Of a stretch of 64,000 nucleotides of DNA, positions 6,951-42,440 are shown piece after piece. Both the position numbers and the translations under genes were made by a program. Every line of letters begins with the position of its first letter. Positions within the stretch are counted from its first letter, which is position 1. This DNA comes from Fulvia fulva (taxonomy: Eukaryota > Ascomycota > Dothideomycetes > Mycosphaerellales > Mycosphaerellaceae), in the NCBI RefSeq assembly GCF_020509005.1, contig NC_063016.1:3038001-3102000 (forward strand). The letters are read 5' to 3'. Under the pieces are notes generated by a model. That model did no database searches. It was not told the DNA's origin and worked only from the letters and a program-made list of their open reading frames with translations.

Positions 6951-8229
6951 CGTCTCGTTTCCTTCCGCTCTGAAATTCTGAATCCTTTTGACACCTATAC
7001 GGACGACCGTTAGAGACTTTTGTGCAACAACTCGAAATAGAAATAGCTAAAGCAGTTTCGCGTTCTATAGGAGACCTCGCTTCTTTCTTTAATTATAATA
7101 CGCTTAATACGTATTGTACGTCCAATTTACGCGGGTATTAATATCGCCGTCTATTATAGAAGACATATATTATCGTAAGATTTTGTAATAGTATTAATAT
7201 ATAGTAATAGCCTTATCGTAGTATTAATATACAATACTTAAGAGAGAACTACCGGGAACGTTAATTATATATATATATAGTACCGAGGGATTAGCTAGGA
7301 AGAATCTTCTCTAAGAAGGGATAGGCTAGGATTATAGGATTAAAGATATTTTAAAAAGTAATTATAGTTAATAGAGCCCGAAGGTAATATATAGAATAGT
7401 AAGGCTTAGGACGTACGGGAGCCTAGTATATATTATATATATAAAGTAAGGTAAAGCCTAGGCTACGATTAGGAAAGGTATTAAAGATACGATCGTAAAG
7501 TAAGGCCTAAAGCAAAAGGTAAGTAATAGTAAGGTTCGCTCCTTTCTTAGAGGTTCTATTAAGATAAGGTCGTATATACTTACTATATAGCTTATACGTA
7601 CGGTCGCTACCTCTCGTTAATATAAGATATTCTATCTAAGTAAATTAATCCTTCTTACTAACTATAATAACCTCTTCGATCTCTTCTATCTATATAGCTC
7701 TTACTATCATTTTGATATCCTCTACTATACGTATAACTATTACTACTATAGCGCTAATTAAGTACGGCTCTCTATTCGATCTTACTAATAAGGAGCTAGA
7801 TAATAATAATCTCTCTCTTAAGAATCTAGCTAATATTTTTAAAGGAAGCGTAATAATATATTTCTAGCTTTATAAAGCTACTACTAACGTATATAATTAT
7901 AGCGTTAAAGAGACTAAACGGATCTTTAAGAGCGGAACATCGACGAGGACTATCTACTTAATAGCCCTTATTAAGACGAGTAATCTACTTAAGTAGTAGC
8001 GACCCGCCTACGCTAGCGGCGGCGTAATCGTAGTATAAAGAACCCTAAAACTAAGGTTCCGTTCCCCTAATAGTAGACCCTAGAGTTACGGAGTTACGAA
8101 GGATAACTACCTAATTAGGAAGCGCGACCTCACCCCGAATCGTAGCGGAGAATAGTAACTAACGAGAGCCTTAGTATTACGAACATTCTATACTAAGAGC
8201 TAAACCGGGGAATAAACTAAGAAAAAACC
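6951..8229. repeat. Edge of RIPed repeat block, unassigned
   Basis: From about 6950-7080 composition changes abruptly. CA and TG nearly vanish, TA dominates and CG stays common, which is the mark of CpA-to-TpA RIP. No long open frame survives. Part may be the 5' region of the LINE whose ORF1 relic starts near 8230, but I could not match it to the other elements here. Confidence 0.6.
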
Positions 8230-8833
8230 TAGGATATAAGCTAAGGCCTACTATATAGAAAGTAGAGGCTAACGACAAATAATATAGCGTAGACGACCCT
8301 ATATACGGAGGCGGAAAACTTACTAGGGGATAACGAACACCTAGCCCGGGTATATAAGAACACTATAGTATAGCTACTAGGAGCGCTAAAAGCGCTATTA
8401 TACTAAATCCTAAGGACAATCTAACAAGTAATACAGAAGGTAGCCTAGGGACTAACTATATAGATAATAGTAGTAGTAGGTAAGAATTAACCCCCTACGA
8501 AGGCAAGTAATACGGTACGCCTATACATTACTAATCCGGCGGAGAAACAAGAAATCGTAGCCCTAATAAGTAAGGAGATTGTTAACAGAATCGGCTAAAA
8601 GGAGGTAGTTAGAGCGAAGGTAGAGGCAATAGGCGTAGTAAGACTCTTTACCGTATAAGAGTCTAATAGACAAAAACTAGAGACCTATAAGGAGTAGACT
8701 ACTAAAGTCGCGAAGTTAGTACGAGTCTCCTACTAATAGTATACCGTTATTGTCTATAGGGTCCCTAGGACATTTAAGGTCGAAGACCTTCCCTAACTCT
8801 AAGTATAGAACTAGAACTAATACGTACAATACG
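8230..8833 (+). pseudogene. RIPed Tad-like LINE ORF1 fragment
   Basis: With its many TAG/TAA stops read through, the plus-strand frame from about 8500 to 8790 parallels the intact LINE-B ORF1 product of this window. Blocks such as VRLYITNPAEKQEI, SKEIVNRIG, VVRLFTV and TVIVYRV align in order with VYISDQQEQKEI, GKEIIQKIG, VLKLFTA and MVIAYRM of LINE-B. Upstream, LLGALKALLY matches LLGGLKALRS. The relic is cut at 8834, where the Gyp-A LTR starts, before the zinc knuckles, so Gyp-A probably inserted into this LINE. It is non-functional. The stops are the types expected from CAG, CAA and TGG. Confidence 0.7.
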
Positions 8834-9012
8834 TAAGACAGGGCGTAAACGTATTAATACCTTAGAATCGAATAAGTTCTACGAGGAAGAGAAGATAAGA
8901 AAGTCGCGAAGCCGCGATAAAGTAAACGTCGAGGTTAGGGTCTAGGGTCCGGGCGCGCTAGCGTACTAGGTCACGTGACACTAAGTGTAGCCTTACGAGG
9001 TAGACCGTGATA
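8834..9012 (-). repeat. Gyp-A 3' LTR
   Basis: 179 bp, direct copy of 33951-34129 with differences mostly of the CpA/TpA type. On the minus strand it starts TATCACGG, from an expected TGTCACGG after RIP. It is preceded by the polypurine tract. Confidence 0.8.
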
Positions 9013-12000
9013 CCCTCCCCCTCTTAAACTGCCGTACGCCCTCGTACGCGGAAATATATCGCCGTAGGGTATATCCGTAAGGAAGAACCGTACTATTAGG
9101 AAGCGCTAGCTTACGTCGGGTTAACCGTAGAGAGACTATATATCTTGCCGTAGTAAGCCTTAAGTCGAGTCTATATTATACCGTAGTATATCTTAGACAA
9201 GCTAACTATATATCAAGCCTTAGCTTGCCTTAAGTTATATCTATATTACGCGGGCGTCGTAAGGTCGACTATTAGTAACGATATCTAGGTCGTCTAATAT
9301 CTAACCTTTAGGCTTACGCTATCTAGGTAGTAGACCGGCCGCTAACGGGTTCTTATAATAATAATCTACTATCGCTTCCTCGGTACTACCTTTTAATTTG
9401 CTATAAGGCACTTCTATAATAGTACTACCTTCCTAACGGACGGTATACTTTATATACTTCTTAGCTCTACTAGTCTATCTACTGTCTATAATCGCCTTAA
9501 CCGCGTATTTATCTAGCTCCTCGCTATCGCCTTCGGAGGCCTCGATAAGTAGTTAACCTAAGCTTTAATTAGGGAATAGGTCGTCGTTTACTAGGCGTAG
9601 TACGCTAGTATAGAACCTCGGGTATATACGTATACTTTCCTAAAGGTCGAGCTCGTATACGTCTACGTTAATCTTACGGGTAATTGTAAAGGGACCTATA
9701 TTCTTATAGTCAAGTTTCTTATAGGGCCTTTAAGTACGGATGTTTCTAGTATCTAGCTAAACCTTATCGCCGATCGCGTATCTTAGTATAGGCTTACGCT
9801 TATTCGCTACGGTGTCTACGTACTACTCTTAGGTATATCTAAGCTATATAATATAGTATACGTTAACGTTCTCTATAAAAGTCGCGAAATCTTCTACGTA
9901 CTACTTCGATAAGGCCTATATTTTCGGAAGCTTAGTACCGTTACCGCTCGTAGCCTAAGGTAATACCTCTATTCGAGGATTACGGCCTAGCGTTACGAAG
10001 AACGGTAATATACCTATAGTAGCGCTCTATTAATTGTTTAGGGCAAACTCTACGATAGGTAACTACTAGACCTAATCGTCCTACGTATAGTTAACGTACG
10101 CGCCTAGGTACTATTCTATAGCTTAGTTCGTACGTTCTAACTACCTATTAGTCTAAGGGTAAAAGGTAGTCGAGATCTTTATACGTATAGCTAGACGCGC
10201 TATAAGAGCCTTCTAGAATTAGCTTACCTACTAACTACTACGGTCTAATACTACCGTATCGAATAGGCCCTAATCCTTAATCACGTACTTTAATACGGCG
10301 TCGGCCGCTACCTTAGGGGTCAAATCTACTACGGGTATAAGATGCTTCCTCTTAGTAAGTCTATAGGTCAGGGTAAGGATAGCGTTATACTTCACGCCCT
10401 TAGTACTATAACTTTCCGGTAGCTCTACTACGTAATCGAGTACTACCTCCTTATAGGTACCCGAGGGTATAGGTAACTGTCGGAGTATACCTTAGTACGT
10501 ATTATAAAAAGCCTTGGATCGTATATATAGGTAACAATTCTTAACGTACTTAGCGACATCTACTACTAGACTAGGCTAGTAGTATATACGCGTAAGTAGG
10601 TCGACTGTCTTCTTACGCCTAGAATACCTAGCTAATAGAGTATTGTAGTACCTCGCTATTAGCTCCGGACGAAGCTTATACAGTACGTATATACGTCCTT
10701 AGATCTTAATTAGGTTACCGTCTAACTTATAGTTACTAAGCGAGATATAGCTAGAGCCTTCTAGGCTTAGTAGTAAAGTACGAGCATTATCGTCTAGGGC
10801 CTTCTTAATACCGTACGCTAGCTCGTCTTTAGTATAGGCTTCCTCGATAAGTTCTTTAATAGAGGCCTTGTTTACTTCAAGTACGTAAAGTACTAATTAA
10901 TACTAGTCGGCCGTAGTACGCGGAGTAGTTATAGCTAATAGCTTAAAGCGCTTACGTATATTAGGAGGGAGATTACGTAGCTTTAATATAGCTTACTACC
11001 TATGTTTTATATCATCCTTATCGTCTATATCTTGTCTACGGCGCGTAAGGCTATCGGGCTTTGTCCTAAGCTTACTAGGGCAATATTCTATCTAGAAGTC
11101 AAACCCGGATAGGAACTCGCTCTAGCGCGCTTATCGGCGGGTTAGCTACTTAGTCGTTATGAGCTACTCTAAGCCCTTATAGTCGGTAAGAACCTTAGAG
11201 GGAGCGCTTATTAGCTCCGGCCTCTATTCCTCGAACGCTCTAATAATAGCTATTAGCTCCTTGTCGTAAATCTCGTAATTATATTCTACTAGGTTTATCT
11301 TTATCGAGTAGAATACGATAGGATACAATTCACCGTCCTCTCTAACCTAAGACAATACGCTAGCTCTATACCTATCTAAGGAATTAGTTTCTATAACGTA
11401 GGGCTTAGTAATGTTAAAATGTACTAATACTAGGCGTTTATAGAATACTACCTTTAGGGTCTCGAACGCACTTTAGTAGTCTAGGCTCTATACGAAGGGT
11501 ACACGATTCTTAAGTACGTTACCGCGTATAAGGTCGGTCAAAGGTATAACGATACCGGAAAAGTTATTAATAAACCTCCTATAGAAGTTAGCTAGCCTAA
11601 GGAAGGACAGTACATCCTTTAAGCTCTATAGAGTAGCCTAATCTATAATAGTCTAGACCTTAGATTTATCTATCTAAATGCCCTTATTAGTAATGATTAG
11701 TCCTAAGAACTTGACGCTCTTCTAGAAGAAGCGGTACTTATAGACGTCTATAGGAAGTCGAGCGTTAATTAGACACTTAATAATAGTACGTACGTGTTTC
11801 ACGTGTTCCTTAAATGAACTATACGTAAACACGATGTAGTCGTCTAGGTATATAGACACGAAGTCGTCTAGGTGTCTATATAATGCTTTGTTAATATATA
11901 CCTAGAACGCGCTTAGTACGTTATAGAGACTAAATGGCACTACAAGCCATTCGTAGGTACTATATCGGGTAGTAAAGGCTGTCTTCTATTCGTCGCCTTT

Positions 12001-13967
12001 ACGGATACGTAGCTCGTTAAATGCTATAATAATGTCTAAGGTAGTGAACTACTATACGCCGCTTATACGAGCTAGGGTCTTACGGACTTAAGGTATCGGG
12101 TACCTATTCTTAACGGTAATAGCGTTAAAAGCTCTATAGTCTACGTAGACACGGAGTCCTCTACCTAGCTCCTTAATAATAATGATAGGACTAGCGATCT
12201 AGGACGTAGAGCGTCGGATTTTACTAGCGGCTTCTTCCTTATCGACGTAGGCTTTAGTTATATCGAGCTCTAGTTTCGATATAGAATAAGGACGCTTGAA
12301 AGGTAGCTTAGCGCCTTTAACGAATTCAATCGCTAAATCTGATTTGGGGCGATAGGGAGGTAGGCCTTTAGCGACAGACGGGTCAAATCCGTGCTTTAGG
12401 TCTATTAGCTATAAGGGTAGTAAGGATTCGACTTCTCGTATAGTCGCTTGCTTCTTATTTATATAGATAGCCTTGTCTTTAGCTAATATAGTACTTAGCC
12501 GTATACTAATGTCGTAAATATGTTCCTTAGTTATAGGCTCTAGCTTATTAGGGTTAAGAGTCCCTATTTCCTAAATAAGGTAACCTTCGTCTAGGTTTTC
12601 TTCGTAGGCTTCGCTAATCGTTATACTAGATACCTAGATGTTAGGTTCTAGAGTCTATAAATAAGGGATAGCGTGCTATATACAAACCTTTGTACCGCCG
12701 ATAGTCGTAGGGTAAGGATCGTAATAATCCGTATAGTACTTTTTAGTAAATATAAATATATTAGCTCCCTAGTCTAGTATAGGGTAGTACTTCTAGAACT
12801 AGGGTATACTAAACACGAATTCGTAGTCGAGGTTAGTAACGAAGTAACTAACTTCCTCGACATAACCGTTTAGGTCGAGCTTGGTCTTAATACATCCCGT
12901 AGCTTAACTAGATACTTTAGGGTTAGCTCCTAGGTCTATCTTCTAAGCCTAAGGCAGTCGTGTTTATAATAGATGTTTCTTCGTAAACTTCGTATTATAA
13001 AATAGCGACTCGGTACCGGGATCTATAAGAATACGTACTAGCTTACTACCCGCTACGCCTACTACTATAATGTACGAGCTTCTTAGCGGAAGGTCTATCG
13101 TCTTTATAGTATATAGTATAACCTCCGGACTAAAGATTACGGGGATGTTACTAATTACTATTTCCTACTATATAGGGTTCCTCTTTCCTCTATAACGGTA
13201 ATATAATAAGGGCGTAACCTTAGGAGATTCTAGTAGTACCGTCTTCGGAGGATTAGTACTAGGCGCGAGTATAGGCTACTAGTCGGTACGTATACGACTA
13301 GAGCCTAGGCTTCCTACGACTCGGTAGCCTTAAGCTCTACTAGTACGTCGCCGACCTAGATCGATACGTTCTTCGTAGCGTTATTAGCGTCGCTACTAGT
13401 CTTCTTATACTTCTTAAAGGGACACTTAGGCGACTAGGCACCCTTATAGTCTATAGCCTTATATACGTAGTAGAACATATCCTCCTTAGGCTTAGCTACT
13501 TCTTCCTTAGTAAGATTACGGAAGGTATAACTATCGTACTTAGCGGCTTTAAGATTATATTCCTTACGAATCTTCTCGTTATAGTAGATATACTTAGGCT
13601 TACCTTCGTTACTACCGCGACGGCTACTATTATTACGGCCGCTACCGCCTCCGCCGGAACCCCTAATATCGTCTAATTTTAGTTTGACATCGCGAAGGTA
13701 TCGCTAAAGGGCTAGGAGGTCATTAAAGTCGTCGCGATATACTAGTGCCTACTTTAACATGTCGTTTAGCTTGTCCTAGATATCGTCGATAAGTTCCTTA
13801 TCTATCTTCTCTAGGTAGTACCCGTGCTCTAGGAACTTAGTATAAAATACGTTAAATGTACGATTACCTTAGGTATAGTTATTATAAGCCTTCTTGTACT
13901 TCTTAAGCTTATAGTACTCGCCGTAAGAGTCGTTTAGCACTGTTATTAACTTACGCTAACCGGTTAC
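9013..13967 (-). pseudogene. Gyp-A pol and gag 3' part (RIPed)
   Basis: Reading the minus strand through RIP stops gives a recognisable Gypsy pol. The reverse transcriptase lies at about 11650-12330: [29 protein letters not shown] and the catalytic box YLDDYIVF near 11840, then VKFLGLIIT at about 11700 and NFYRRFI. RNase H follows (YNEIYDKEL-like block near 11270, ARWSEFLSGF near 11115). The integrase core lies at about 9700-10700. The 13000-13960 part is the protease/gag side and ends at the LINE-A1 insertion. Dozens of TAG/TAA stops make it inactive. It continues at 17929. Confidence 0.8.
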
Positions 13968-14179
13968 CTTCTTCTTATATAGATAGATAGATAGATATTT
14001 CATTAAGCTGTTGTAGTGCCCTTTGGCCTATGCAGCTATGCTATCTTGTTTTTGTATATATAGAGGGGAAACCGTGTTGGTGAAAACCCCTCCTCCTTCC
14101 CGCCTGTCTTTTCCTCCTCGTTGTCGTCTTAAATTTCCCTTGTTAGGGGTACGCTAGTGTCATGGGCCTGCCCTGATGA

Positions 14180-16819
14180 CTACCCTATCTGCAACCCCCC
14201 TCGCTTCCGCCTCTTGTCTATCCACTCCTCCGTCTCGCTCGCGAGGCTAAACTGCTGGAGGTATCCCTGCTGTAGTATCCACCGAGAGATTCGGCGAATG
14301 TTGCCTTTGTCCCTAATAATTGACTTGTAGTCTCTCCTTCCCGCTTGGTGCCTCCAATTTCCCCTGCCTCTCGCCCACTGCGGGCATCGTAGTAGCATAT
14401 GTTCTGGGTTTTGCGATGGGTAGCCACACTGGCAGGCTGGGCTATAGATGTCTAGTGCGCGTCTCCTGAACAGGTAGGCCCTTAATCCAATGTGTTCGGA
14501 CCTGATTTGGATCGCTATGCTTGCTTCGGCCCTTGTCAGGTCCCTATATAGCTGGTAATTGTGTCTCTGGAAGGCTCGGAGCGCTATCGGGGCTGTTGTC
14601 TTAGGGGGCTTCCTTTTCCAGTCCTGCTCCCATAGGCAGCTCGCTATCTGTTCCGCTAGGTTTTGGGTCTTAGCCTTGCTCCCGCCGGCCTGGCGAGTCC
14701 TACGCTCCTCCTCCTTTCGTGCTAGCCATTCGGTGCTTGTCTGTACGGCCGTAAAGGTAGTAAGGTCATCCTCTTTTTGGCTTGTCCTATATCCTGCCCC
14801 TCTCCGGTAGCGGCTTTCTATCTTATTCTTTGCCTCCTGGATCGTGGTTTGTGCTAGGTAACCTGTCGTCTTTGCCGCGTATTGAATTCTCATTCCCCGG
14901 ATGTACTGGCCGATTGGTGGTATTCCTGTCTCCATTTCTACCGTGCTTGTTGACGTTGTCTTGTATGCGCCTAGTACCCTACGTAGGTTGCCTGCCTGTG
15001 TCCTGTTTAGGGGTTGCTCTATCCGTTTCGGGATCGGCTTGCCTGCGCCTCCTGTTCCCCAAATCTGTGCCCCGTATAACATAGCTGGTCTGACGATCGC
15101 CTTATACATTACTCTTGCCTTGTCGAATGTTGCTCCCCATGTAGATGCCGTAAGCCTCTTTATCGAGGCTTCATTGACTTGCGCTCGACTCTGGGCTTTC
15201 TTAATCTGTACATTCCAGCTTAGCTTCGGGTCGAGCCAGATCCCTAGTACTCGTAGCTCCGCTGATGGCTTGGTCTCGTAGCCTTGGATTCTTACCGCCG
15301 CCTTCATATTATGGTGTGTTCTCGCTTTACTGAAGTGTATAAGTTGGTACTTTTCAGGGGCGAACCGGGCACCATGCTTCTTTGCCCACTCCTCGCATTT
15401 CTTGTGCCTATCTTCAAGGAGGCGACAGTTCTCTTCTGTCGAGTCTGACCAGGCTAGGATGTTTGTATCGTCTACGAACCCCGATGCTGAGGTTTGCGGA
15501 GAGGTGAGTAGGGGGATTAGATCCGACATAAATATCAGAAACAGGATAGGGGAGAGAGTAGATCCCTGAGGTATTCCAGTCTCTGCCTTCACCGGGTCGG
15601 ACGTGTACCTTCCTAGGACTAGGTATGTCGTCCGTTCCTGGAGAAAGGAGAAGACGAACGACGTTGCCCACTGGGGGATGCCTTTCTGCTGTAGGATATG
15701 TATTAGCCTTTGGTGTGAGACGTTGTCGAAGGCCCCTGCGATGTCGAGGGATAGTAAGGACGCCGCTCGGTTCCTGCCGTAGTGCCAGAGGGTCTGAATT
15801 TGCTCCGTAATTAGCTCCATTGCTGTTAGTGTCGATCGCTGGCTTCTTCCCCCCATCTGTGTTGCTGGGAGTACGTGGTTGTCCTCGGCAAGCTGCGTAA
15901 GTCTCTGGGCTACTATCTTTTCTAGGACCTTCCCTATCGTATTTAGAAGTGCTATTGGTCTGTACGACTTGGGCTGAGTATAGTCTTCCTTCTGTGGCTT
16001 GCGTAGCACTACTGTCATAGACTCTCTGTACGGCTTCGGGTGATACCCTAGCCGTAGGCACGCGGTAAATAGGTTTGCAAGGCTCGGCGCGATCTCTTCT
16101 CTACACTCTTTTAGCAGTACGTTTGGTATCCTGTCTGGGCCTGGGGCTTTTCGTCCCTTTAGCTTACTTATGACTCCTGTTACTGTGTTAGAGCTAACCG
16201 CCCAATCCATGTCCAGGGGTTCCGGGTATGTGCTCGGGTCGATGTCCGTAAGGTCTGCCTCTACTTGCGTCGAAAAGAAATGGTCGGCTAACGCTTTTGC
16301 CTTGCCCCGGGGCGTAGCCTGGGCAATCCCTTCGCGGTCTACGATTGGGGGGAAGTGAGGGGCTTGTTGCTCTTCAGGTAGTCGTGCCCATTTAGCAAGT
16401 CTCCACATCTGTTCCGGGTTTTCTGTAACGAGCCCGATCGTCGCTCTCCAGTCCTGCAGCTTATCGCGTCTTATCTGTGCCTTCTTCTCTTGTGTCGCGT
16501 GGCAGTATTGCTCCCACGTCTCTTGGGTGTGCTCCTTCGTCCACTGTCGCCTTGCCCTTCTAGCCTCCCTTACCTTCGTAGAGCATTCAGGGGTCCAGAA
16601 GGCCTTCTGCTGCGTTGAGGGCCGGAGTAACGGCGTGTATTGTTCCGCTGCTTGCCATATGACCGAGGTAATCTGTTCCGCTGCTTGATCTAGCTGAGCT
16701 GTCGTCTCGAGTTCTCTATGCTGTGGTAGGTTCGCTATTAGGAAGCCTCTTATGTCGTCCCAGCGTGCCTTCTTCCAGTTACGGCGTGGTTCGTTTGCTG
16801 GCTCCTCTATCGCCTTCAC
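14180..16819 (-). pseudogene. LINE-A1 ORF2 fragment: reverse transcriptase without endonuclease
   Basis: An open frame of about 880 codons. Compared with the LINE-B ORF2 of this window it begins after the endonuclease domain. The stretch KAFWTPECSTKVREARRARR matches the post-endonuclease linker. The RT domain shows APGPDRIPN, SYRPIALLNTIGK, LSLDIAGAFDNVSHQRL, GIPQGSTLSPILFLIFMSDL and the catalytic box FVDDTNILAW. A C-terminal CCHC-like motif (CQCGYPSQNPEHMLLRC) follows, as in other Tad-clade LINEs. There is no ATG at the frame start: the first in-frame candidate is GTG and a TAA lies just upstream near 16849. This copy is therefore probably not translated properly, despite being uninterrupted. 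It is a deletion product, not a full ORF2. Confidence 0.9.
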
Positions 16820-16836
16820 CCCTAGCGTCGTTTGGC

Positions 16837-17836
16837 AAGGAAGGAATCGTATTTAGCAAGCTAGCTACGAGATAAGGTGACAAGTCTTAACCGCGCTTTC
16901 CCACTCATCTAGCACCACCGTGTAGCCTCGTTTCGAGAGGTTAGCCCGGAGCAAAAGCTTCCCTCTACGCCCTCCCTCCCTGTTTGCTCCTTAAGCCAAT
17001 ATCCACCTCCATAGGCCTAAGCCCTTTAGTGCTCTCTATTGACCGACATGCGCATCCGTCCTCTCGGGCTGTACAGACAGTGTCAGCCGTCGCTGCCAGT
17101 GTACACCACGCCCCAGGTTTTGACGCCCTTCGCGTTACCGCAGCCTATCTCTAGAAAGCGGCCGTCCATGCCTCGCAGGTTTGCTCGGGGCACACACCAC
17201 GCCGGGCAGCGTACTCCTTGCGTTTCCACCTACTAACCAATATGAAGTTCCTTATCACCCTGCCCTCGATCCTCCCCGATCACAGAACTAATCCACTTGC
17301 ATTGTACGTCTTTTCCCCGTCCTAACAGCCGTCTTTTCCTTGCTTAGGCTATCGTCTTTTCCTCGTCGCAATCTACCATGTCAGACTAGGTGCGTTGTGT
17401 AGCGGGACAGGCAGTGCCTCAGGCAAAACCCTCGTTCCTATACCGGGTGTTCAACAGGCCCTTATAGGCTTCGCCGCGTGTCCACCTACCCACCGCATTG
17501 CCCGCTGGCAAACACCAGATTGTTTCGTAGTCCGCTCGACGCCGTTGCATAGTCCGCTCAGTTGTTGTTCTGTAGTCCGCTCGTCTAATGTTCGTCGCTT
17601 AGCCCGCTCGGTTTGCGGTCTCCGGAGGTGAAAATTCTGCACTCATACCAGAGGTGTCCTGTCGAGCGTATAGGCCACGGTTCCGCGCCCTTCTTACACG
17701 TAGAAAGAAGAGGGACTCGCTCCCGACACGAGTACACGCTCGTCGGATGGTTTTCATACCCGTTTTGCTGGTAGTCCTCTGTTCGCCGCGGCTTCGCCTA
17801 CGCTACGCGCCCGTCGCGCCCACGACGCTCCAGCGT
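16837..17836 (-). other. LINE-A1 5' region (no ORF1)
   Basis: About 1 kb shared in inverted orientation with 26615-27612 of LINE-A2. There is no credible ORF1 and no zinc knuckle. Short frames on both strands lack motifs. It is CpG-rich. It carries four spaced decamers (see 17528-17609) and probably acts as the internal promoter and 5' UTR. The junction to ORF2 near 16837 is where an internal deletion must have joined the 5' region to the RT part. Confidence 0.6.
17528..17609 (+). promoter_or_regulatory. Four spaced decamer repeats in the LINE-A 5' region
   Basis: TAGTCCGCTC occurs at 17528-17537, 17550-17559 and 17573-17582, with a one-base variant TAGCCCGCTC at 17600-17609. The spacing is 22, 23 and 27 bp, about two helical turns. 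The same array, inverted, lies in LINE-A2 around 26842-26923. Such arrays can bind a regulator of the internal LINE promoter; this role is inference. Confidence 0.45.
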
Positions 17837-17913
17837 GAGAATACTTGGCTCTCTCGTAGCTAGACGAGAGGTTCGTAGCCGACACCACGTACAGGTGATT
17901 CTCGTCGTCGACC
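17837..17913 (-). ncRNA. HDV-like self-cleaving ribozyme at the LINE-A1 5' end
   Basis: The minus-strand 77 nt, identical to 26538-26614, fold as a nested double pseudoknot. P1 is GGTCGAC with GTCGGCT (7 bp, G.U at the cleavage end). P2 is GAGAAT with ATTCTC. P3 is ACC with GGT (3 bp). The 7-nt L3 is TGTACGT, whose GT pairs with the AC following P1 (P1.1). P4 is the hairpin CTCTCGT/ACGAGAG at 17851-17870. J4/2 is AGCCAAGT with the expected catalytic C. Cleavage would fall between 17914 (TSD) and 17913 (first element base). Known: HDV-like ribozymes process the 5' ends of R2, RTE and L1Tc LINE transcripts. Activity here is predicted from structure only. Confidence 0.8.
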
Positions 17914-17928
17914 CTTCTTCTTATATAG

Positions 17929-18204
17929 CCGTAGGCGGGCGTTAGTATTACCGACGACAAAGTTATTAAACACTACTAAGTATACTATATAAAATCGGCT
18001 ATATAACTCTTCTATAGTTATATAGTCCTCTACTTTCTCCTTCTACTCTATAAATCCGAGTTCATCCTTATAATTAGGTATATTAGCTAAGAATATAGGA
18101 ATCTTCCTCGAGTTAATCGGGTTACGGGTACCGCCGTTACTACGCTAGATAGCGGCGTTAACTAAGACTACCGTAGTGTTATTATTACCGCTAGTTACGG
18201 TAGA
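17929..18204 (-). pseudogene. Gyp-A gag fragment between LINE-A1 and Gyp-B
   Basis: RIPed gag-side sequence that continues Gyp-A after the LINE-A1 target duplication and ends at the Gyp-B insertion (GTAGA, 18200-18204). There is no intact frame. It is assigned by continuity and composition. Confidence 0.6.
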
Positions 18205-18724
18205 TGTCAGGGCGAGAGCCTGGCCTGTGAGATGCAAGGGTGAAAGCGAGAATGCAGGTGCGAAGTGCAGATGCAAAAGGGTATGGTATGATTGCTACAC
18301 AAAACAAAAGACGAAGAAAGCAAGAGAGGCCTGGGGAAGGCCAGATATTTATACGCGACCCTCGCGAGTGCGTGTCCCCGCATCAACAGGGCTAACCCGT
18401 GCGAAGCCGCGCTCAGCAGCTTTGCTCAAAACCTTATTCCAACCTGCCCTACGTTCCGAGTCTTCCACGTGCTTCTTCCAGGGTCCAGCGCAGTCGCGGG
18501 TGCTCGCGGGAGTGCCGTGAGTCACACAGTCACGAGCCGAAGTGAATCTGTCAAGGTTTGGTAGAGGGGTGAATTTGGAGGGCTGGGTCCCGTAGCGAAT
18601 GTTGCGGGGCATGTGATTCTTGGCGCTCACACACCAAGCTGGACTGTCACTTCTTGACGACTTCTGAGCACTCTGAGGCTCTTCTGTCCCCACCTTCTGT
18701 ACACTCTGTGGGGAGACCATGACA
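18205..18724 (-). repeat. Gyp-B 3' LTR
   Basis: 520 bp, identical by eye to 23976-24495. On the minus strand it follows a G-rich polypurine tract (GGGGGGCTAC, about 18725-18734). The pol frame runs into it and stops near 18349. Confidence 0.95.
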
Positions 18725-23973: not shown

Positions 23974-23975
23974 GA

Positions 23976-24495
23976 TGTCAGGGCGAGAGCCTGGCCTGTG
24001 AGATGCAAGGGTGAAAGCGAGAATGCAGGTGCGAAGTGCAGATGCAAAAGGGTATGGTATGATTGCTACACAAAACAAAAGACGAAGAAAGCAAGAGAGG
24101 CCTGGGGAAGGCCAGATATTTATACGCGACCCTCGCGAGTGCGTGTCCCCGCATCAACAGGGCTAACCCGTGCGAAGCCGCGCTCAGCAGCTTTGCTCAA
24201 AACCTTATTCCAACCTGCCCTACGTTCCGAGTCTTCCACGTGCTTCTTCCAGGGTCCAGCGCAGTCGCGGGTGCTCGCGGGAGTGCCGTGAGTCACACAG
24301 TCACGAGCCGAAGTGAATCTGTCAAGGTTTGGTAGAGGGGTGAATTTGGAGGGCTGGGTCCCGTAGCGAATGTTGCGGGGCATGTGATTCTTGGCGCTCA
24401 CACACCAAGCTGGACTGTCACTTCTTGACGACTTCTGAGCACTCTGAGGCTCTTCTGTCCCCACCTTCTGTACACTCTGTGGGGAGACCATGACA
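23976..24495 (-). repeat. Gyp-B 5' LTR
   Basis: 520 bp, identical by eye to the 3' LTR. On the minus strand it contains a TATA box (TATAAATA, 24117-24124), and about 34 bp downstream the GTCTTTTGT that matches the primer site. This suggests U3 of about 412 bp and R-U5 of about 108 bp. Confidence 0.95.
24117..24124 (-). promoter_or_regulatory. TATA box of the Gyp-B 5' LTR
   Basis: The minus-strand TATAAATA lies 34 bp upstream of 24083, the likely transcript start. The same box lies in the 3' LTR at about 18346-18353. Confidence 0.55.
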
Positions 24496-25576: not shown

Positions 25577-26537
25577 CTCCTACTTAGGCTACATAGTCTC
25601 TTACAATCCCTTTACGTAAGCTAGAGCTACCTTATAAAGTTTTAGAACTACTAGCTATTAAGGGGCTTTGTTAACCTATTAGTAGCTATGTCCTTTATAT
25701 AGTAGTAGTCCACTATAATCTTCTTCTACTACTAGAGATGTCTAACATAGTTATATATAACATCAATATGCTTTGACCTTTTATATATATAGGTATATTT
25801 AACAAGTGTCAAAGCGGCTTAGTTATTACCTATAAGCTTGACTAGCCTAAGAAATTGTGACTACTTTACGGCTACGTTTATAGCTATAAACTCAGCTTCT
25901 ATTATTGATGTTACAATAGACTTCTACTTCCTACTTATCTAGGACATAGGTGATCTATAAAGGAGCTATACGTATCCTAGAGTTAAGACTCTATCCACTT
26001 TGTCTATAGCGTAGTTAGAGTCCGAGTATCCCTAGAGATTGCCCCCTCCCTATCTATATATAAGACCTAGGTCTAGGTACGACCGTAGGTATTAGGAGAG
26101 CTTCTTTAAAGCCTTTATATACTACTACGAGGGATCAGTAACATATAAGCTAATTCTTCTGAGGGGGAATACTAAGTCTAGCCTTGTCATTGTCATTAGC
26201 CACATCTAGGTACTATTATAGCTCTAGTAATCCTGTTTGTTGCACCTCTTATCTATAGGTACCGTAGGCACTAAATGCTCGTAGCTCTCTATAGGTGAGT
26301 AGGTTAGCGTAGCCTTCTCTCTAGCTATGTTCATCTTGGCCAAGTTAGCGTAGAAATAGTGTCCTTAATTAAGCTTTAAAGTGCCTTAGGACCTGTCTCT
26401 TATAATCCTTATTCTAAGGATCTTCGTAGGTTCACCAAGATCTTTAATCTTAAACACTTTTCTAAGCTTAGCCTTAAACCACTGAACATCTAATAGCTTC
26501 GGAGCTATAATAGGTATGTTATCTATATAGGTAAGGA
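25577..26537 (-). pseudogene. Copia-A pol 3' part (RNase H, RT end), RIPed
   Basis: Minus-strand relic. At 26386-26560 it reads LTYIDNIPIIAPKLLDVQWFKAKLRKVF, matching the Copia-B RT block TYVDDIPIAAPKLSDVQWFKAELGKVF. The catalytic YVDD has become YIDN, so it is dead. RNase H-side sequence follows toward 25577. LINE-A2 inserted just upstream of the catalytic box. Confidence 0.85.
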
Positions 26538-26614
26538 GGTCGACGACGAGAATCACCTGTACGTGGTGTCGGCTACGAACCTCTCGTCTAGCTACGAGAG
26601 AGCCAAGTATTCTC
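26538..26614 (+). ncRNA. HDV-like self-cleaving ribozyme at the LINE-A2 5' end
   Basis: Elements: P1 26538-26544 with 26568-26574 (all seven pairs, G.U at the cleavage end); P2 26548-26553 with 26609-26614; P3 26555-26557 with 26565-26567; L3 26558-26564 (TGTACGT); P1.1 GT 26559-26560 with AC 26575-26576; P4 26581-26587 with 26594-26600; J4/2 26601-26608 including GCCAA. Cleavage would fall between 26537 (last TSD base) and 26538 (first element base). L3 keeps the U, C and G expected at positions 1, 5 and 6 in HDV ribozymes. The sequence is identical to that of LINE-A1. Activity is untested. Confidence 0.82.
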
Positions 26615-27612
26615 ACGCTGGAGCGTCGTGGGCGCGACGGGCGCGTAGCGTAGGCGAAGCCGCGGCGAACAGAGGACTACCAGCAAAACGGGTATAAAAA
26701 CCATCCGACGAGCGTGTACTCGTGTCGGGAGCGAGTCCCTCTTCTTTCTACGTGTAAGAAGGGCGCGGAACCGTGGCCTATACACTCGACAGGACACCTC
26801 TGGTATGAGTGCAGAATTTTCACCTCCGGAGACCGCAAACCGAGCGGGCTAAGCGACGAACATTAGACGAGCGGACTACAGAACAACAACTGAGCGGACT
26901 ATGCAACGGCGTCGAGCGGACTACGAAACAATCTGGTGTTTGAGAGCGGGCAATGCGGTGGGTAGGTGGACACGCGACGAAGCCTGTAAGGGCCTGTTGA
27001 ACACCCGGTATGGGAACGAGGGTTTTGCCTAAGGCACTGCCTGTCCCGCTACACAACGCACCTAGTCTGATATGGTAGATTGCGACGAGGAAAAGACGAT
27101 AGCCTGAGCAAGGAAAAGACGGCTGTTAGGACGGGGAAAAGACGTACAATGCAAGTGGATTAGTTCTGTGATCGGGGAGGATCGAGGGCAGGGTAATAAG
27201 GAACTTCATATTGGTTAGTAGGTGGAAACGCAAGGAGTACGCTGCCCGGCGTGGTGTGTGCCCCGAGCAAACCTGCGAGGCATGGACGGCCGCTTTCTAG
27301 AGATAGGCTGCGGTAACGCGAAGGGCGTCAAAACCTGGGGCGTGGTGTACACTGGCAGCGACGGCTGACACTGTCTGTACAGCCCGAGAGGACGGATGCG
27401 CATGTCGGTCAATAGAGAGCACTAAAGGGCTTAGGCCTATGGAGGTGGATATTGGCTTAAGGAGCAAACAGGGAGGGAGGGCGTAGAGGGAAGCTTTTGC
27501 TCCGGGCTAACCTCTCGAAACGAGGCTACACGGTAGTGCTAGATGAGTAGGAAAGCGCGGTTAAGACTTGTCACCTTATCTCGTAGCTAGCTTGCTAAAT
27601 ACGATTCCTTCC

Positions 27613-29186
27613 TTGCCCTCGACATCGCAGGGGCCTTCGACAACGTCTCACACCAAAGGCTAATACATATCCTACAGCAGAAAGGCATCCCCCAGTGGGC
27701 AACGTCGTTCGTCTTCTCCTTTCTCCAGGAACGGACGACATACCTAGTCCTAGGAAGGTACACGTCCGACCCGGTGAAGGCAGAGACTGGAATACCTCAG
27801 GGATCTACTCTCTCCCCTATCCTGTTTCTGATATTTATGTCGGATCTAATCCCCCTACTCACCTCTCCGCAAACCTCAGCATCGGGGTTCGTAGACGATA
27901 CAAACATCCTAGCCTGGTCAGACTCGACAGAAGAGAACTGTCGCCTCCTTGAAGATAGGCACAAGAAATGCGAGGAGTGGGCAAAGAAGCATAGTGCCCG
28001 GTTCGCCCCTAAAAAGTACCAACTTATACACTTCAGTAAAGCGAGAACACACCATAATATGAAGGCGGCGGTAAGAATCCAAGGCTACGAGACCAAGCCA
28101 TCAGCGGAGCTACGAGTACTAGGGATCTGGCTCGACCCGAAGCTAAGCTGGAATGTACAGATTAAGAAAGCCCAGAGTCGAGCGCAAGTCAATGAAGCCT
28201 CGATAAAGAGGCTTACGGCATCTACATGGGGAGCAACATTCGACAAGGCAAGAGTAATGTATAAGGCGATCGTCAGACCAGCTATGTTATACGGGGCACA
28301 GATTTGGGGAACAGGAGGCGCAGGCAAGCCGATCCCGAAACGGATAGAGCAACCCCTAAACAGGACATAGGCAGGCAACCTACGTAGGGTACTAGGCGCA
28401 TACAAGACAACGTCAACAAGCACGGTAGAAATGGAGACAGGAATACCACCAATCGGCCAGTACATCCGGGGAATGAGAATTCAATACGCGGCAAAGACGA
28501 CAGGTTACCTAGCACAAACCACGATCTAGGAGGCAAAGAATAAGATAGAAAGCCGCTACCGGAGAGGGGCAGGATATAGGACAAGCCAAAAAGAGGATGA
28601 CCTTACTACCTTTACGGCCGTACAGACAAGCACCGAATGGCTAGCACGAAAGGAGGAGGAGCGTAGGACTCGCCAGGCCGGCGGGAGCAAGGCTAAGACC
28701 CAAAACCTAGCGGAACAGATAGCGAGCTGCCTATGGGAGCAGGACTGGAAAAGGAAGCCCCCTAAGACAACAGCCCCGATAGCGCTCCGAGCCTTCCAGA
28801 GACACAATTACCAGCTATATAGGGACCTGACAAGGGCCGAAGCAAGCATAGCGATCCAAATCAGGTCCGAACACATTGGATTAAGGGCCTACCTATTCAG
28901 GAGACGCGCACTAGACATCTATAGCCCAGCCTGCCAGTGTGGCTACCCATCGCAAAACCCAGAACATATGCTACTACGATGCCCGCAGTGGGCGAGAGGC
29001 AGGGGAAATTGGAGGCACCAAGCGGGAAGGAGAGACTACAAGTCAATTATTAGGGACAAAGGCAACATTCGCCGAATCTCTCGGTGGATACTACAGCAGG
29101 GATACCTCCAGCAGTTTAGCCTCGCGAGCGAGACGGAGGAGTGGATAGACAAGAGGCGGAAGCGAGGGGGGTTGCAGATAGGGTAG
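27613..29186 (+). pseudogene. LINE-A2 ORF2 remnant (RT C-terminal half)
   Basis: The frame begins inside RT motif A (LDIAGAFDNVSHQRL) because of the internal deletion, so the first RT motifs are lost. GIPQGSTLSP, FVDDTNILAW and the C-terminal CCHC (CQCGYPSQNPEHMLLRC) remain. Two in-frame TAG codons (28368 and 28527) stand where LINE-A1 has CAG. A few other G-to-A changes fit RIP, such as the lysine pair near 28011. It cannot encode a working RT. Confidence 0.88.
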
Positions 29187-29394
29187 TCATCAGGGCAGGC
29201 CCATGACACTAGCGTACCCCTAACAAGGGAAATTTAAGACGACAACGAGGAGGAAAAGACAGGCGGGAAGGAGGAGGGGTTTTCACCAACACGGTTTCCC
29301 CTCTATATATACAAAAACAAGATAGCATAGCTGCATAGGCCAAAGGGCACTACAACAGCTTAATGAAATATCTATCTATCTATATAGGTAAGGA

Positions 29395-41429: not shown

Positions 41430-42440
41430 AATTTCTAAGTAGAAGAAAGGAATATATTAGAGTAATAAAGCGGGAACTTGATTCCTAGTATATTATTAAC
41501 TATAGTAGGGCGTACCTCTAAGCGTACATCCGTATACTTGAATTAGGTTAAATATTTCTCGGAAGGTATTATACTAGCGGGCTTAAGGAGCGTCTATAGT
41601 ACTACTTAAGTATAGTCTATACTAAGATATATTTATAAAATACGGCTATACGTACTAGTACGCGAGGTTAACCTAAGCGGAGTATATTAGCGTATCTATA
41701 ACTTTTAGAACTAGCGTAGAATAAATATAATACCCGGTCCGGACTTTATATAGTCTATAGACGCTTACTATAAACTCGAGGACTTCGGCTTCTAGATCTA
41801 CGCCTACGTCGATAGTTATTTACGCTATATTCTCTAGTCCTACTATAGCCTATCCTTACGTATAATAATCTCCGTACTATACTAGTACTCGCTAGCCGCG
41901 ATATTCTATAGTAGGACTTCGTACCTTATCTAAACGGATAGGAGTAAGGAGACTATTATACTTACCGATATATCGGTAAGTATATATATATATATTGGTA
42001 AGTATAATAGTCTCCTTACTCCTATCCGTTTAGATAAGGTAGTAAGGAGACTATTACCGATATATATTTCTAATATATATAATAGGTACGAGATATAAAC
42101 AAGCTATCTTACCGGACGTTTTATTTTAGTAAAAGTATAAAGAATATACGGATCGAGTCGTAGTAGTAATAGATAGTACGAGGAATACTTAGGTATTAGA
42201 GTATAAGTATCTTTCAAATAGTGATCTATACTTATACTACGCTATACTACTAAAGATATATTATATTCTAAGCCTACGTAAATATATAATAAGTAGCTAA
42301 GCTAATAGGACTCTTTATAAGATTACTTCCGCGCTCTTTACGCTATAGAGTTTTATAGTAAGACTAATAACCGTAACCGGATTACTATAAAGTGTATCTA
42401 TAAGCGTATTATCTAATAATAGCTATAGCGCCTCGTCGAG
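41430..42440 (+). pseudogene. RIPed integrase-core (rve-like) transposon protein relic
   Basis: With stops read through, 41725-41960 gives PGPDFI.SIDAYYKLEDFGF.IYAYVDSYLRYIL and, further on, FYSRTSYLI.TDRSKETIILTDI. This resembles the DDE core found in many fungal integrase-core proteins (first Asp in SIDxY, YxxVDxYSRYI, and a TDRG-like second Asp). The reading is interrupted by the palindrome at 41922-42041 and picks up again near 42042 with KETI. The family name is from memory and moderate in certainty. No ends or target duplication were found. Confidence 0.5.
41922..42041. repeat. 120-bp palindrome with 50-bp arms
   Basis: The arms 41922-41971 and 41992-42041 are inverted copies with one or two mismatches, separated by 20 bp of mainly TA sequence. 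Inside, 41957-41984 is a perfect 28-bp palindrome. The left arm is in frame with the integrase-core relic. Part of it (GTAAGGAGACTATTA) appears a third time at 42042-42056, so it is probably an inverted local duplication and not a transposon. Confidence 0.8.

Follow-up and report, generated by a model that had tools for sequence, protein, structure and literature searches.

The MINE elements of Magnaporthe were reportedly described by Fudal in 2005, and variant HDV-like ribozymes of fungi by Li and Breaker (2017). Ribozymes of this type are present at the 5' ends of RTE LINEs. R2, L1Tc/ingi and further LINEs also begin with one, according to the available text of two papers (PMC3774820, PMC4035085). 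The fungal survey comprises 230 representatives from 26 species, of which two were tested and cleave, and in the text available it calls the gene associations "widely variable" (PMC5640933); the string "transpos" is absent from its main text. In Drosophila, the R2/R1 hybrid SIDEs place the R2 ribozyme before the 3' end of another LINE and are mobilised by that LINE, as described in the available part of PMC3414825. In Magnaporthe, MINE elements join a WEIRD RNA to a 5'-truncated MGL LINE; WEIRD is 1,113 nt long, non-coding and expressed, the jump motif in the LINE is GCC*, a tripartite form exists, and the available sections report neither a solo copy of WEIRD nor a relative elsewhere among genomes (PMC2104539). 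The same paper lists GenBank EF585235–EF585237 for three MINEs that are transcribed. Each of these three themes, namely HDV-like ribozymes in fungi, LINEs capped by a ribozyme and MINE chimeras, has thus been described separately, and in the open-licence literature, as far as its text was available, we found no report tying an HDV-like ribozyme to MINE/WEIRD-type elements or to Tad LINEs.

Here, we describe a 64-kb stretch of DNA (the window) in which these themes meet, together with searches of the Cladosporium fulvum Race 5 genome (67,169,167 bases in 14 contigs). Two composite insertions lie in the window. In copy A2, a WEIRD-like non-coding module of 1078 nt (26538–27615, plus strand) ends in CCTTCCTTG, the next C belonging either to the module or to the LINE, and is fused to a 5'-truncated LINE-A fragment (27616–29376, plus strand) that has an ATCT-repeat tail at its end and broken RT reading frames at 27591–28370 and 28530–29186. 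The whole is flanked by 18-nt target-site duplications at 26520–26537 (5') and 29377–29394 (3'). Copy A1 (locus L014) lies on the minus strand, with the module at 16836–17913 and the LINE-A fragment at 13983–16835; here an 890-aa RT-containing frame (14180–16852), beginning in the module end, is open, and the target-site duplications lie at 17914–17928 (5'; CTATATAAGAAGAAG) and 13968–13982 (3'). The architecture matches that of MINE: as far as the published text is available, the two systems have in common a full-length non-coding 5' part of ~1.1 kb, a variable 5'-truncated LINE, target duplications, a C-rich LINE junction site, tripartite double jumps and the lack of a recognised solo copy (PMC2104539). 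The likeness is one of architecture, and there are two differences: 502 module 5' ends are found here compared with 33 chimeras in Magnaporthe, and an HDV-like fold is recognised here, whereas the available text makes no mention of one for MINE (PMC2104539). We consider it quite probable that the window holds two MINE-type chimeric retroelements, in each of which a ~1,078-nt non-coding RNA, copied over its whole length, forms the 5' side and a 5'-truncated LINE the 3' side, and that a free non-polyadenylated RNA, its 5' end cut by an HDV-like ribozyme, served as the template-jump acceptor for the LINE reverse transcriptase.

The candidate ribozyme occupies the first 77 nt of the module, at 26538–26614 (plus strand) in A2, and the same 77 nt recur at 17837–17913 (minus strand) in A1. 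All helices of the HDV-type double pseudoknot can form there in the order P1, P2, P3, P1.1, P4, as had been predicted. With nt 1 placed at 26538, P1 pairs nt 1–7 with 31–37 (7 bp, with G1·U37 at the cleavage end), J1/2 is GAC, P2 pairs nt 11–16 with 72–77 (6 bp), C17 between P2 and P3 is unpaired, P3 pairs nt 18–20 with 28–30, and L3 is UGUACGU (nt 21–27). P1.1 is made by G22-C39 and U23-A38, and P4 is a plain 7-bp helix (nt 44–50/57–63) with a 6-nt loop. In J4/2 (AGCCAAGU), the active-site C followed by N-A-A/G appears as C66-C67-A68-A69; C66, at 26603, is the putative catalytic C. The extra nucleotide between P2 and P3, here C17, is shared with the fungal HDV variants, in which it is usually a C; on the other hand, the cleavage-site pair of these variants is typically C-G and their P4 contains a loop E, rather than G1·U37 and a plain P4 (PMC5640933, available text). 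The predicted scissile bond, 26537/26538, falls exactly on the insertion junction. The original prediction had placed this junction from the target duplication, and the position is borne out, although the duplication is 18 nt long instead of the 17 given there.

Could the resemblance to an HDV ribozyme have arisen by chance? Two results speak for that possibility, the low Rfam score and a stable alternative fold. At gathering thresholds, Rfam gives no match for the candidate. In a 181-nt stretch, the only Rfam match at E ≤ 10 is HDV-F-prausnitzii, which starts exactly at 26538 with 13.1 bits and E = 3.1; the score is below the gathering threshold (44 for RF02682), which is a detection rule that lies outside the structural definition of an HDV-like ribozyme. 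In a permissive Rfam search of the whole window, the stretch at 26538 was not among the matches at E ≤ 5, and RF00094 gave none at E ≤ 10 across the genome, with 86 of 1,350 candidates scored. The covariance-model check that the original prediction had proposed thus returned no significant HDV match in either set of searches. Furthermore, a nested, non-pseudoknotted fold of an 80-nt stretch reaches −22.7 kcal/mol and is more stable than either pseudoknot half (−19.2 for P1+P3+P4 and −15.4 kcal/mol for P2+P3+P4, each without pseudoknot energy).

Against a chance origin stands the rarity of the fold combined with its position. A descriptor of the family anatomy matched only 26538 (plus strand) and 17913 (minus strand) on the two strands of the 64-kb window. 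After dinucleotide shuffling of the window, 46.08 Mb contained 5 starts (~1 per 9 Mb), and shuffles of the first 300 nt of the module contained 1 in 7.2 Mb. This test is not blind, because the descriptor was composed after the candidate was known. Relaxing the descriptor to accept C or G at +1 and a weaker P4 gave just the module and one other sequence in the window plus fetched loci (0.64 Mb, both strands), compared with 2 matches in 3.84 Mb of shuffles. With about one start per 9 Mb expected, the fold nevertheless sits at the one position that the junction predicts, and we regard a chance resemblance as very improbable. In the comparison with HDV-F-prausnitzii, L3 is UGUACGU here and UCUaCGU in the Rfam alignment, and the base change is compensated in P1.1, where G22-C39 replaces the C-G of the consensus. 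Relative to this one distant consensus, both partners have changed with pairing kept in four pairs of P1 and one of P1.1, as we read the alignment. Any covariation rests on this single consensus because no relatives from other species were obtained; a DNA pattern search and a protein scan, covering viral contigs, returned none outside this genome.

The ribozyme fold belongs to the separate 1,078-nt non-coding module and not to the LINE. In an alignment of the 3.9-kb copy A1 with the window and 20 fetched loci, constant sequence extended over the first ~1,078 nt and gave way to variable sequence downstream. The module measured 1,078 nt in 21 of the 21 copies first read and in 17 of 18 further copies picked by exact end words, the remaining copy having 1,073 nt. 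Forty loci all begin with GGTCGACGACG directly after their own flanks, a biased sample in that they are the best matches to the 5' end. In a sample of 49 taken on contig C1 by 3' ends, the exact 5' 22-mer was present in 27, always at exactly 1,078 nt. Of the other 22, we retrieved 20; in 14 of these the 5' end is present in register but carries point changes, in 5 it is shifted by 1–6 nt, and 1 lacks it, being a broken module that starts near nt 474–487. One further C1 copy has the 5' 22-mer 1,786 nt away, and 1 of the 49 was not read. Across the genome, the module 5' 22-mer has 502 matches at ≤2 mismatches. In the 5' flanks of the 40 loci, the target duplications often begin with CTATATA or a variant of it, suggesting an endonuclease preference of the LINEs.

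No long ORF was seen in the ~1 kb of the module. Its folding energy (−372, compared with −385 ± 10 for 30 shuffles) gives no sign of a rod-like fold, and we rejected a viroid-like, highly base-paired genome, as the module folds no more strongly than its shuffles. Head-to-tail module copies were absent from genomic DNA in searches for exact copies with a 0–12-nt gap and for copies with ≤3 mismatches at one-C spacing.

The junctions with the LINEs are many. In A1 numbering, LINE-A is joined at positions 1079, 1388, 1588, 1696, 1776, 2006, 2154 and 3068, and other copies continue into sequences 72–83% identical to LINE-A, which by our reading would represent at least two further LINE families, or at least three in all. 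Target duplications of 12–18 nt flank 18 of the 21 copies first read, and among all 21 we count 18 distinct junctions. A further 40 junctions, taken by the 3' end on contigs C2 and C3, form 31 groups of joined sequence. Six groups and two loci occur in both sets, which leaves 59 loci with 43 distinct junctions, a figure in which RIP divergence could have split a few groups. Some of the joined sequences are unclassified: some match only flanks, and L111 has no long match and, when extended (L113), runs into unassigned sequence. Three of the 40 C2/C3 junctions (L080–L082, on C2 near 2.49, 2.53 and 2.57 Mb) are spaced ~37 kb apart, and chimeric copies L067–L069 (on C1 near 8.83 Mb) are also regularly spaced; within each group the junction or flank is the same, and both groups are probable segmental or tandem duplications.

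These junctions bear on the possibility of a ribozyme that caps the LINE, like those of R2 and L1Tc, with the variable junctions arising as internal deletions of one long element. In its favour, the insertion that starts with the ribozyme was mobilised by a LINE and has target duplications, and the likeness to R2 goes that far: in R2, too, the cut site is the 5' junction of the element and integration is of the LINE type, as the available literature describes it. Internal deletions are disfavoured, however, because random ones would vary both sides of the junction, whereas the module side is constant, its LINE partner changes from copy to copy, and the same module occurs with several LINE families. 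Moreover, two full-length copies of the LINE, L050 and L051, both open with another sequence, AACCGACCCATC, which precedes ORF1 (470 aa from stop to stop) and the beginning of ORF2; ORF2 frames of 1,118 aa lie at their contig sites, and the descriptor has no match in the loci of L050, L051 or a third, shorter fetched copy, L052. A ribozyme within the LINE proper was rejected in view of these differing 5' ends and the lack of a descriptor match, and we find the LINE-cap explanation, with its internal deletions, scarcely credible.

Consequently, the original prediction has to be amended. The cut site of the HDV-like fold is indeed the 5' end of the inserted element, and that element is mobilised by a LINE; the fold, however, is not the LINE's own 5' end, since the full-length copies start elsewhere without the motif and the module has partners at many positions and in several families of LINE. 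The assignment to LINE-A2 is inexact: the first 1,078 nt of that insertion are not LINE sequence. The suggested aid to translation is unlikely because a ~1-kb module without a long ORF follows the ribozyme. Among the named protein matches was a LINE from Passalora fulva (58% identity), the same species as Cladosporium fulvum. LINE Tad1 makes up 16.3% of the C. fulvum Race 5 genome (67.17 Mb in 14 contigs), according to the available text of PMC9453070, and five assemblies of the species have been published in PMC10823647. The window contains one more LINE-A-related copy (~7910–12118), with an 11-nt target duplication (ATAGCGTTAAA), another 5' sequence and neither module nor descriptor match.

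The sequence at the junctions suggests how the module was joined to the LINEs. Among 268 exact genomic matches to the module end, CCTTG is followed by C in 241, by T in 25 and by A in 2. By our reading, 15 distinct LINE-A junctions (nine from a first set and six new ones from a second) have a C at the site, within CC in 13 and GCC in 6, and in L095 the LINE reference has T at the junction site. The LINE usually also has that C, so it may be either the last base of the module, as a 1-nt microhomology, or a base of the LINE. No poly(A) was present at the junctions read. Splicing as the cause of a constant/variable junction was rejected, as LINE-A has no AG acceptor before the junction in the 12 copies placed. 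Locus L115 (C3:1269800–1274200) contains a full module, module nt 297–1077 and a LINE-type end within a single 17-nt duplication, which points to the reverse transcriptase having jumped twice in succession to one and the same RNA 3' end. Some junctions are common to several copies, for example LINE-A position 2897 in L025–L027, and may reflect hot spots or chimeras that transposed again as whole units.

The course of events that we favour, a template jump by the LINE reverse transcriptase, would proceed as follows. A longer transcript containing the module would be made, and the ribozyme, whose fold can be drawn in full, would cut it at G1 and so set the 5' end of the RNA. The module RNA would have a precise non-polyadenylated 3' end, as its junction is constant and lacks poly(A). 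The LINE reverse transcriptase would begin target-primed synthesis on LINE RNA, stall at a C-containing site (often CC) and, as the junctions suggest, jump to the 3' end of the module RNA. It would then copy to the ribozyme-made 5' end, and joining of the cDNA to the upstream target would place the target duplication directly against G1, where the junctions indeed show it. In this way, the module would spread by capturing LINE synthesis part-way, in contrast to a SINE, which imitates the LINE 3' end. The scheme differs from that of R2 and L1Tc, in which, according to the available literature, the LINE itself contains the ribozyme; here the ribozyme would be part of a separate RNA added by template jumping. 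It also differs from the Drosophila R2/R1 SIDEs, which, in the published text available, are short and carry the ribozyme directly before R1 3' sequence; here there are a constant 1,078-nt module and many junctions.

Stable HDV-like folds at the 5' end of the template raise the efficiency of R2 insertion (PMC11331408, available text), so the structure of the module may help even after cutting. The same finding lends weight to another interpretation, in which the 77-nt fold persists as a stable cap at the 5' end that protects the RNA or helps to form the 5' junction, with self-cleavage either not required or no longer present. Yet a mere cap needs no cut site exactly at the first nucleotide, and C66, L3 and P1.1 are intact in young copies, albeit copies chosen by their 5' ends. 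We did not use the invariance of the ribozyme in young copies as evidence of selection, because of that choice. A cap structure without the need to cleave seems unlikely to us.

Many genomic copies are damaged, with RIP-type changes recurring at core positions of the ribozyme. In 23 copies with an altered 5' end region (nt 1–77), the recurrent changes are of RIP type (CpA to TpA or its complement): G22A in 20 copies, G28A in 18, C77T in 18, C67T in 12, C17T in 7 and G31A in 3. The only recurrent changes in these 77 nt that are not of RIP type, A53T (9) and G54A (8), both fall in the loop L4, and single copies carry C4T, G11A, C19T, C20T, A57C and C66A. Variants at module nt 109, 111, 314, 733 and 895 define lineages that divide the copies into groups, as would fit an amplifying element or an evolving single source. 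In copies with fewer than 30 differences, 11 sites show A>G compared with 3 showing T>C on the module strand; this excess is too weak, and its polarity too uncertain, to be taken as evidence that the RNA was edited before it was reverse-transcribed.

What would the captured RNA be? The pseudogene view of WEIRD taken by Gogvadze et al. 2007 (PMC2104539, available text) would translate here into a host housekeeping non-coding RNA, the ribozyme having a host function and the LINE-joined copies being processed pseudogenes. This alternative keeps the ribozyme and the jump and differs in what the RNA is. A precise-ended RNA that was abundant enough for many separate jumps is what it would lead one to expect, the sequence lineages are few, and WEIRD is well expressed according to the text available (PMC2104539); however, 502 genomic 5' ends and successive lineages resemble an amplifying element, and no solo copy was recognised among the ~60 junctions read, in which several joined sequences are unclassified. 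We hold the host RNA to be possible, with the balance leaning against it.

Alternatively, the module may be an RNA-level parasite without an ordinary gene, in which one ribozyme cuts unit-length monomers from a multimeric or circular RNA. A single kind of cut would then set both ends, G1 and nt 1078/1079, together, and DNA copies would arise solely where LINE reverse transcriptases jump to the RNA 3' end. The lack of head-to-tail copies in the genomic searches and of unusual overall folding speaks against it. If true, this would also explain why no source gene for WEIRD was found in Magnaporthe. We think such a parasite improbable, clearly more so than a host RNA.

If the template-jump reading is true, the ribozyme would explain the first letter that the copies have in common and would supply a mechanism for the MINE puzzle of 2005–2007, namely a complete 5' RNA with constant ends. 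It would also carry ribozyme capping beyond LINEs, to an RNA that uses template jumping to hitchhike on them, and would suggest a role in mobile elements for at least some fungal HDV-like ribozymes. With ~500 copies, the formation of the 5' end, the jump sites and the source RNA become directly testable in one fungus.

Two other features of the window were noted. Weak matches to several microRNA/roX families occur on both strands at 41932–42031 and are probably due to low-complexity sequence. Between the two chimeras, identical 300-bp direct repeats at 18203–18502 and 23974–24273, 5.8 kb apart, enclose long open frames, and this unit is probably a recent LTR retrotransposon.
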